A DNA stretch of 28,322 nucleotides from a virus: the IMG/VR virus record IMGVR_UViG_3300020451_000123, positions 1 through 28,322 of that record; one strand, 5' to 3'. The position numbers and the translations under genes were made by a program. How positions within the stretch are numbered: the stretch's first letter is position 1; every line of letters begins with the position of its first letter. Below the pieces are notes generated by a model that worked only from the letters and a program-made list of their open reading frames with translations, ran no database searches and had not been told where the DNA came from. Below are positions 3,597-5,200 of this stretch, one piece after another.

Positions 3597-3830
3597 TTAC
3601 TGCTCCCAGTACATAGCATTAAACTCTGCTATGTGAAGATAGTCATCATCATGTAACCGTGTGATGTCATCTGGTTCATCAGTGATAAAGATGAACTCTT
3701 CACAGAAGTATTCAACAGCAATACCACCAAGTCGTTCACACGCTCGGAGCATATCACCTATCTCATGGTCTTCCATGTCACATTCATCAATGCAAAATGC
3801 AATATCACGTTCAAGTTGAGTTTGAGACAT
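3597..3830 (-). CDS. Acidic hypothetical protein (77 aa) downstream of the structured RNA
   Basis: 77 residues, rich in Asp/Glu, starting ATG 3828-3830 with GGAG about nine bases upstream. It begins MSQTQLERDIAFCIDECDMED and is predicted helical with several Cys (CIDEC, CERL, FCEEF). It is the first gene after the GC-richer structured stretch at 3849-4201, whose minus-strand end is a T7 run 19 bases before this ATG. If that RNA is a leader rather than a separate RNA, this is the gene it would control. No family is recognised. Confidence 0.6.
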   Translation of the reverse strand: MSQTQLERDIAFCIDECDMEDHEIGDMLRACERLGGIAVEYFCEEFIFITDEPDDITRLHDDDYLHIAEFNAMYWEQ

Positions 3831-3848
3831 TGGATTACTCCGTGGAAT

Positions 3849-4201
3849 AAAAAAACAGCAATGGTCAAGAGGTGCTTCACCTGACTACATTAGACTTACA
3901 GGACGTAATTTCCCTGCTGAACAGAGACAACCATAGATCCTTGCAATGGACAGGTACTAACTCATGCTGCGGTTAGTGTGAGAGGAACGTGGGGCACTGA
4001 TCTGGGTTTCACCCATGTTGCCCAAATTTACCTACTGGGAATCGCTTACACCTGAACCCCCAAACTTAATCGGGGCAGTAGAACCACATCAGTTACCTCT
4101 GCGGCATCAACTGGAGGGGAAGTCAATTACCTTAACGTCATGTCTCCGCTTCTCACCAAAAATGGAATGTCGGAGTAGTTAAGAACCTCACTTATGTTGA
4201 T
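3849..4201 (-). ncRNA. Candidate structured RNA (about 350 nt)
   Basis: This gene-free stretch is visibly richer in G+C than its neighbours and has no ORF of useful length on either strand. On the minus strand it starts about 7 bases after a TATAAT (4208-4213) and ends in seven T (3849-3855). Stems in plus coordinates: 4178-4183 with 4131-4136 enclosing 4171-4175 with 4144-4148; 4109-4113 with 4090-4094; 4072-4075 with 4057-4060; 4019-4023 with 3992-3996 enclosing 4011-4015 with 4003-4007; 3972-3977 with 3956-3961; and 3915-3919 with 3856-3860, which closes next to the T-run and encloses 3878-3882 with 3870-3874. It may be a stand-alone RNA or a long leader for the 3597-3830 gene. Known cyanophage RNA families such as manA, wcaG or GOLLD are candidates but are not recognised by sequence here. 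Confidence 0.65.
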
Positions 4202-4207
4202 GAACCT

Positions 4208-4235
4208 ATTATATACTAAAAAACCACCCTGTTAC
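4208..4235 (-). promoter_or_regulatory. Promoter for the structured RNA
   Basis: Minus strand: GTAACA (4230-4235, four of six -35 bases), a 16-base spacer, then TATAAT (4208-4213). The -35 overlaps the terminator of the upstream unit, so one transcript ends and the next begins within a few bases. Confidence 0.45.
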
Positions 4236-4244
4236 AGGTGGTTT
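4218..4244 (-). terminator. Rho-independent terminator
   Basis: On the minus strand AACCACC and GGTGGTT form a 7-bp stem around TGTAACAG, followed directly by a T-run (TTTTTT, plus positions 4218-4223). It lies just after the 29-residue gene and ends the transcript that starts at the 5201-5229 promoter or further upstream. Confidence 0.8.
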
Positions 4245-4251
4245 GTGCCAG

Positions 4252-4341
4252 TTATTCATCTGGTTGTTTCCAAGGTTTATCATGAGATAAATCTAACCAT
4301 TTTGGTAAATGATCTTTTATCCATGTTATAATCCTCTTCAT
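4252..4341 (-). CDS. Mini-protein (29 aa)
   Basis: A 29-residue frame whose ATG (4339-4341) overlaps the TGA of the preceding gene (TGATG), indicating coupled translation. It begins MKRIITWIKDHLPKWLDLSH and ends in KPWKQPDE. It is basic and aromatic and may form one amphipathic helix, perhaps at a membrane surface. A terminator follows eight bases after the stop. The tight start overlap and the terminator support it as a real gene despite its size. Confidence 0.55.
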   Translation of the reverse strand: MKRIITWIKDHLPKWLDLSHDKPWKQPDE

Positions 4342-5174
4342 CAGTTATGAGAATCAAATTTAGATGGTACTGCTAATGGATCAAAATCTGGTTCAGTTTT
4401 AATCTCAATATTCTCAGGTACTTGTGGATCTACATTGTTTGATTCATCATAACTTACTGGATATGTTGTTGGTTCATTAGTTGAATAGTATCCATCAGGA
4501 TTCTGTTCACTTGATGCGTAACCTGCAATCACTCCTGTTTGTGGAGGTGCAGTGTATGCTGCAACAACCTCTGGTACTTCTTGTACATCACTGTGACCAT
4601 CAACATAAAATGCTCCACCAAGATCATGATCATAATATCCATAAGGATTTGCTTCACTTGATGCTATACTCACTTCAGCATAGTTTGTGGTATCTACATT
4701 ATATGTTGCAGTTGGATATGCTGCGGTTGAACCTGCTGCAACACTGGTATCAACATGATATGGGTGATCAGGTGGATAAATGCTTGTATCAATATTCACT
4801 GTACCTGTCACTTCTGCTGTTGCATAATACTCAGGTGCATCAAATGCTGTTCCAGCGAACCCTGCAACCTCATCAATCCAGTGAATTGACTGTGCTGCTT
4901 GATCAGCATCAAACTGTGCTGCGTTCTGATCTTCTACTTTATCTACTAATGCTGCCTGTGCAACTCTTGCTGCTTCAGATGCTGCTAATGCTGCTTCCTG
5001 TGCAACTCTTGCTTCTTCTGCCTTGTGAGCGGCATGACCTTCTAAGATTGATCGTAAATCAACTAAGAATAATTCTGATGTTGCACCACCGTCGTTCAAG
5101 TATTCATGAACTACTTCGTTTAGTCTGCCTTTTCTGTTGTCTTCAAACATTGCTACTAATTGTTCCTCGTGCAT
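4341..5174 (-). CDS. Ala-rich coiled-coil and Tyr-rich repeat protein (277 aa)
   Basis: The frame is open from a GTG at 5186, but the ATG at 5172-5174 is chosen because the promoter (-10 at 5201-5206) leaves a normal leader only for it. Residues 1-45 are helical. Residues about 45-90 are an Ala/Glu-rich coiled coil (EEARVAQEAALAASEAARVA). The rest is acidic and Tyr/Pro/Thr-rich, with two copies of a repeat SSExNPxGYY (SSEANPYGYY and SSEQNPDGYY). Such composition suits an extended structural or surface protein, but no family is recognised. It is followed by a 29-residue gene and a terminator. Confidence 0.7.
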   Translation of the reverse strand: MHEEQLVAMFEDNRKGRLNEVVHEYLNDGGATSELFLVDLRSILEGHAAHKAEEARVAQEAALAASEAARVAQAALVDKVEDQNAAQFDADQAAQSIHWIDEVAGFAGTAFDAPEYYATAEVTGTVNIDTSIYPPDHPYHVDTSVAAGSTAAYPTATYNVDTTNYAEVSIASSEANPYGYYDHDLGGAFYVDGHSDVQEVPEVVAAYTAPPQTGVIAGYASSEQNPDGYYSTNEPTTYPVSYDESNNVDPQVPENIEIKTEPDFDPLAVPSKFDSHN

Positions 5175-5200
5175 TGGTGTTCTCACGGTACTTACGACCT

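Follow-up and report, generated by a model that had tools for sequence, protein, structure and literature searches.

Exchangeable structured RNA modules in predicted mRNA leaders of small cyanophage genes

Introduction

Structured leaders that act in cis are already known as a kind in cyanophages, with manA, wcaG and PhotoRC-II as described examples (PMC2864571). The RNA considered here is encoded on the minus strand of a virus fragment of 28,322 bases, analysed as a whole and referred to below as the window, which carries cyanophage-type genes (ferrochelatase/2OG oxygenase, glycosyltransferase). An earlier note, made by reading this sequence alone, had picked out positions 3849–4201 as a candidate phage structured RNA, either stand-alone or a long leader of the gene at 3597–3830. 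Comparison with related viral sequences reveals a division into domains, covariation of helices, a position between promoter and gene, and swapping of the parts. The region is very probably a cis-acting, structured 5' untranslated leader of the 3597–3830 mRNA. The main point, which the earlier note missed, is that the modules of such leaders are shuffled.

Organization of the leader

The arrangement of signals given in the earlier note is correct. Reading along the minus strand, the intrinsic terminator of the upstream gene (4341–5186) lies at 4218–4244 and consists of a 9-bp stem and a T run. It is followed by the -10 box TATAAT of the putative leader promoter (4208–4213), and then by the leader itself, from about 4202 to 3831, with seven T at 3849–3855 and a Shine-Dalgarno-like GGAG at 3838–3841. 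The leader stands 5' of a 77-aa gene (3597–3830), its likely client. The %G+C of the stretch is raised, as had been claimed, but modestly (0.44–0.49, vs 0.32–0.42 in the neighbours). The claim that it is free of ORFs holds for the minus strand, which has none of 50 aa or more, but not for the plus strand, where a 55-aa ORF is found at 4015–4182. A short motif, ACTGGCAC, occurs at 4245–4252 (minus strand), between a stop codon and the next terminator or promoter, and recurs in the small-gene region of P-SSM2 (at 56582, 57062, 66606, 67181, 67757 and 68061).

Modules E, A and C follow one another on the minus strand, and B is nested within C. Module E (4105–4202) is closed by P1 (4196–4202/4105–4111), which begins at the predicted 5' end, followed by P1b (4186–4189/4114–4117) and the inner helices P2a (4178–4182/4132–4136) and P2b (4171–4175/4144–4148), with an insertion loop at about 4152–4168. 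Module A (3981–4100) has P1 at 4096–4100/3981–3985, P2 at 4076–4081/4032–4037, P3 at 4072–4075/4058–4061, which is an insertion site in relatives, and P4 at 4020–4023/3992–3995, carrying a hairpin (4011–4015/4003–4007); its conserved element is UUCAGGUGUAAGCGAUUCC. Module C (3856–3969) is formed by P1 (3965–3969/3856–3860) and P2 (3951–3955/3879–3883), with UUAGU and GAAGCACCUCUUGA as conserved elements. In its loop sits module B (3893–3944), with P1 at 3938–3941/3900–3903 and P2 at 3922–3926/3912–3916. The closing stem drawn in the earlier note (3915–3919 with 3856–3860) is probably wrong, as 3912–3916 belongs to B-P2 and 3856–3860 pairs with 3965–3969 in C-P1.

Judged on the window alone, the claim of a structured RNA would fail, as folding energy and Rfam are both blank. 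On neither strand is the minimum free energy lower than expected from dinucleotide shuffles (z +0.71 for the minus and +1.12 for the plus strand), so that the stems drawn earlier are not evidence of structure by themselves. Single modules reach z values of -0.7 to -2.2, and the window sequence can form all helices of the comparative model at a cost of about 5 kcal/mol or less relative to its optimum. Against Rfam, the window gave no match at the gathering threshold and only chance matches around the region at E≤10, while 67 kb of relatives gave none at E≤1. The models for manA, wcaG, GOLLD, ROOL and OLE matched neither window nor relatives, and the suggested kinship with manA, wcaG or GOLLD, or with any other Rfam family, is not sustained by a meaningful match even at E≤10. 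As a positive control, the same search recovered manA (RF01745; 142837–143034, 181.6 bits), PhotoRC-II and the glutamine riboswitch in P-SSM2, and wcaG (RF01761) scored 89.6 bits in S-SKS1. The case for more than a chance fold comes from relatives, in which the elements are conserved and covary, rather than from the stems.

Relatives and distribution

Searches with blastn found separate conserved minus-strand blocks in P-SSM2, P-SSM5 and single-cell marine viruses, where their order differs and a gene intervenes. Prochlorococcus myoviruses carry the modules, as do well over 100 IMG/VR contigs. Pattern scans of IMG/VR recovered block A in at least 119 stretches (a few of these being chance matches in coding sequence), block B in at least 119, C in 46 and a strict E pattern in 36; on long records the E pattern, being too strict, gave no matches. 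Since the isolates P-SSM2 and P-SSM5 also carry them, the leaders are not an assembly artefact. The same small-gene region of P-SSM2 holds further long intergenic stretches without the modules tested (65698–66123, 66280–66678 and 68264–69221). A bacterial origin was rejected, as the exact 21-base core of A has no match in 257 Gb of bacterial and archaeal genomes and module A has none in plasmids.

Each of 10 long records, among them the complete genomes of P-SSM2 and P-SSM5, has module A exactly once, for which reason a dispersed repeat was also rejected. Neighbouring leaders both contain A in 1 of 55 pairs, against 7.9 expected, as if duplicates were removed or redundant.

A further module, D, found in these leaders, is a predicted pseudoknot (P-SSM2 144039–144115; loci L265, about 880–952, L266, 900–951, and L267, 885–951; also L061). 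Several of its pseudoknot helices covary, with 12 distinct strand pairs in 18 sequences, and the partner-swap control is weak, there being few strands. Module D extends far beyond the P-SSM2 group, to 54 phage records of which 51 are Synechococcus phages, and has no Rfam match. It stands directly after the promoter of tRNA-manA-tRNA arrays in ACG-2014f and precedes such arrays in S-B05 and S-H68; in P-SSM2 it lies upstream of purM.

Covariation of helices

Among the matches listed, A-P2 shows perfect five-base pairing in 127 of 128 copies, using 8 helix sequences and enclosing inserts of 14–263 bases. An alignment of 31 module A sequences has 99.1% of cells paired (vs 85.0% in shuffles) and nine pairs with changes on both sides; sliding the partner by one base lowers pairing to 47–62%. 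A-P1 occurs as GUGG/CCAC, ACGG/CCGU, AAGG/CCUU and GCGG/CCGC. The other modules behave similarly: 138 of the 140 copies of E-P2b are paired and include 10 fully paired variants, the outer helix of C has 9 such variants among 62 copies, and in B the inner and outer helices are paired in 131 and 130 of 131 copies (among the matches listed), with compensatory changes from AGGA/UCCU to AGGG/CCCU and from CUCUG/CAGAG to CUCAA/UUGAG. A strand test by cell counts gave 24 G-U against 23 A-C cells. Because related sequences are treated as independent, the pairing counts overstate the number of events, and the diversity of helix sequences together with the slid controls forms the stronger argument. Covariation in relatives thus bears out the proposal of a phage structured RNA; as judged from these alignments, secondary structure is conserved with compensatory changes, as in structured cis-leaders. 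A coding gene in the stretch, which the earlier note had set against a structured RNA, was considered and rejected, since the inserts differ freely in length, without a step of three.

Exchange and nesting of modules

The scaffolds of A, E and C hold a wide range of inserts: among the matches listed, 67 distinct ones in 130 copies of A, 76 in 116 of E and 26 in 64 of C. Module B is found in A, C and E scaffolds and module C in A and E, and further nestings include a whole A inside E, E inside A, and two copies of B inside one A. The inserts swap for one another while the pairing of the scaffold is kept. Calling architectures with a rough motif parser gave, among the matches listed, 226 complete leaders with a downstream ORF, of which 201 are non-identical; these fall into 103 architectures, built from one to six modules and up to 694 bases long. 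Counting incomplete leaders as well, there are 300 leaders and 126 architectures among these matches.

One gene family may stand behind many architectures. Among the matches listed, the 53 members of one family carry 38 architectures, the 39 of another carry 25, and the family of the window gene, all 11 loci of which lie behind such leaders, carries 8. The closest relative of the window gene among these matches (89% protein identity; locus L264) has a leader in which E bears another insert and A another P2, while C and B are absent. Cyanophages quite possibly practise a combinatorial shuffling of RNA domains, in which a shared pool of domains that fold independently is recombined recursively in mRNA leaders, one domain within another, to give hundreds of composite RNAs with separate activities. 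If true, RNA would here have its own equivalent of the domain shuffling of proteins.

To our knowledge, a nested and swappable architecture is undescribed for natural RNA leaders. The literature searched, in which subscription journals and bioRxiv are thinly covered, contained no description of the modules or of nested exchangeable leaders, and parts of the modules could already be listed in a published catalogue of viral structured RNAs; there is a real chance that the shuffling of modules is categorically new. At least five modules supported by covariation (A, B, C, D and E), carried by abundant ocean viruses and by the isolate P-SSM2 with its public genome, are absent from the RNA family library searched. 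The occurrence of the same gene under dozens of leaders is a ready natural experiment, which opens to test both the survival of phage mRNA where infection raises host RNase E and the question of whether RNA domains shuffle as protein domains do.

Promoter and client genes

In E-type leaders the promoter is locked in place: of 36 unique leaders, 28 have TATAAT 24–26 bases ahead of GAGGUUC, against a background of 0.08 per 70 nt. Among the matches listed, the first paired base lies 8 nt past the -10 box in 46 of 66 E-type leaders and 5–6 nt past it in 36 of 54 A-type leaders. From this spacing, the 5' end is predicted to fall at, or within about 2 bases of, the outermost helix, and from promoter geometry we infer that transcription starts just after TATAAT. 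In A-type leaders (e.g. L061, L013 and L076), a conserved GACGTAAAACTGC lies directly 5' of the -10 box and is possibly a promoter element of its own.

At the other end, the next same-strand ORF begins with ATG in 190 of 203 cases, at a median distance of 93 bases (among the matches listed). By these sequence signals, the leaders are flanked by a promoter on one side and a same-strand gene on the other. Together with the covariation, the locked promoter and the 11-locus gene family, this agrees with the suggestion in the earlier note of a long leader for the 3597–3830 gene. The clients are small and belong to many unrelated families; as, in addition, one gene family may be found under up to 38 architectures, no single pathway is indicated.

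No common expression platform is seen across the leaders, and U runs occur near the start codon. U5 runs precede it in 40% of leader genes vs 9% of controls (among the matches listed). Shine-Dalgarno sites are found in 16% of leader genes and 18% of controls, which include spurious ORFs (again among the matches listed). In the MGTRSR and NFAEFLL gene families, the start codon is preceded by a U-rich stretch and a Shine-Dalgarno-like site is found in 2 of 47 and 0 of 31 members listed. An IRES-like replacement of the Shine-Dalgarno site was dropped, as the overall frequency equals that of controls despite these two site-poor families.

The U7 stretch of the window (3849–3855) also bears on the other form of RNA proposed in the earlier note, a stand-alone regulatory RNA acting in trans and ending at these seven T. 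C-P1 adjoins U7 in the window and A-P1 adjoins it in L264, which would fit such an RNA. However, the closing helices enclose more than 100 nt, unlike those of an intrinsic terminator, and a terminator scan of the region found the upstream one, reported by the scan at 4221–4244, and no short G+C-rich hairpin before U7. In L264 the stretch is retained beside the gene even though module A has replaced C before it, and U-rich stretches before the start codon are general in these leaders. Many relatives have no U run after the last helix, the next same-strand gene follows within about 90 nt, and a single gene family does not keep to one architecture. A stand-alone RNA is therefore very unlikely.

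Possible function

After TATAAT, the RNA would fold domain by domain, first E, then A, then C bearing B. The leaders would be drawn from about 20 interchangeable RNA modules, combined and nested before small accessory cyanophage genes. The reading that we tentatively favour is that such a leader would be mainly a mechanical shield, sealing the 5' end, resisting nucleases and protecting the phage mRNA in cis. The outermost helix would seal the 5' end as a blunt helix, the compact domains behind it would resist 5'-dependent attack by host RNase E or by any 5'-3' exonuclease, and the U-rich single-stranded stretch would be left open for the ribosome. As many different stable domains would suffice for shielding, their free exchange under the same gene would be explained. 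The covarying helices, the fixed promoter distance, the helix at or next to the predicted 5' end, the variety of client genes and the place of module D at the head of untranslated tRNA-manA arrays also speak for this reading. RNase E is raised during infection of Prochlorococcus by phage, and the transcripts of one cyanophage are reportedly protected by antisense RNA (PMC9692554), while bacterial RNase J1 is stopped by a compact viral RNA (PMC5760640). Two observations count against a shield. Loop sequences such as UUCAGGUGUAAGCGAUUCC are conserved beyond the needs of a structural plug, and therefore partners may bind; and most phage genes, those of P-SSM2 included, are without such leaders.

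The same loops favour riboswitch-like arrays, in which each module would bind its own metabolite, ion, or phage or host protein, and the combination would set expression. The variable helices of the modules surround invariant loops, as in aptamers, and known cyanophage leaders, manA and the glutamine riboswitch, are of this type (PMC2864571). It is hard to reconcile with such arrays that the modules before a given gene are swapped, that many unrelated genes share one module, that a common expression platform is absent, and that Shine-Dalgarno frequency equals that of controls. We consider this reading somewhat unlikely.

Less likely again is an action on the transcribing polymerase, by put-like antitermination or pausing, giving read-through of later terminators. 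It would fit the fixed place directly after the promoter and the terminators between small transcription units. Module D adds weight to it, since untranslated tRNA-manA arrays of Synechococcus phages begin with this module too and control of translation would make no sense there. Each client unit, however, seems to consist of one short gene with a promoter of its own, and known put sites have far less domain diversity than these leaders.

That the modules are selfish repeats or intron-like elements, mobile between loops, is highly improbable: they do sit inserted in one another's loops, but inserts replace each other with scaffold pairing kept and interrupt no sequence that could be restored, A is single-copy in each of the 10 long records and rarely shared by adjacent leaders, and no Rfam intron model matches the window or relatives.

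Comparison with known RNAs

Of the known RNAs, manA (RF01745) is like the present leader in being a structured cis-leader of cyanophages, found also in P-SSM2, and it shares its surroundings with module D in tRNA arrays. It differs in sequence and fold, and is one motif of 192 positions rather than a set of exchangeable modules. wcaG (RF01761), PhotoRC-II (RF01717) and the glutamine riboswitch (RF01739) are likewise 5' leader motifs of cyanophages, but match in neither sequence nor structure, and precede metabolic or photosynthesis genes whereas the present leaders precede small uncharacterised ones. GOLLD and ROOL are similarly large, multi-domain and phage-encoded, but they stand alone near tRNA islands, while the present RNAs lead single genes and have shuffled domains.

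In the put RNA of phage HK022, RNA stem-loops lie directly after a phage promoter, as in the present leaders; put consists of two small hairpins of one sequence, and has no known similarity to them. The flaviviral xrRNA would be alike in the proposed principle, a compact viral fold that shields from 5'-3' decay, of which the placement of a helix at the predicted 5' terminus is what is shown here. It is a 3' UTR element of unrelated sequence, while the protection proposed for the cyanophage leaders is a hypothesis and would act from the 5' end of the mRNA.
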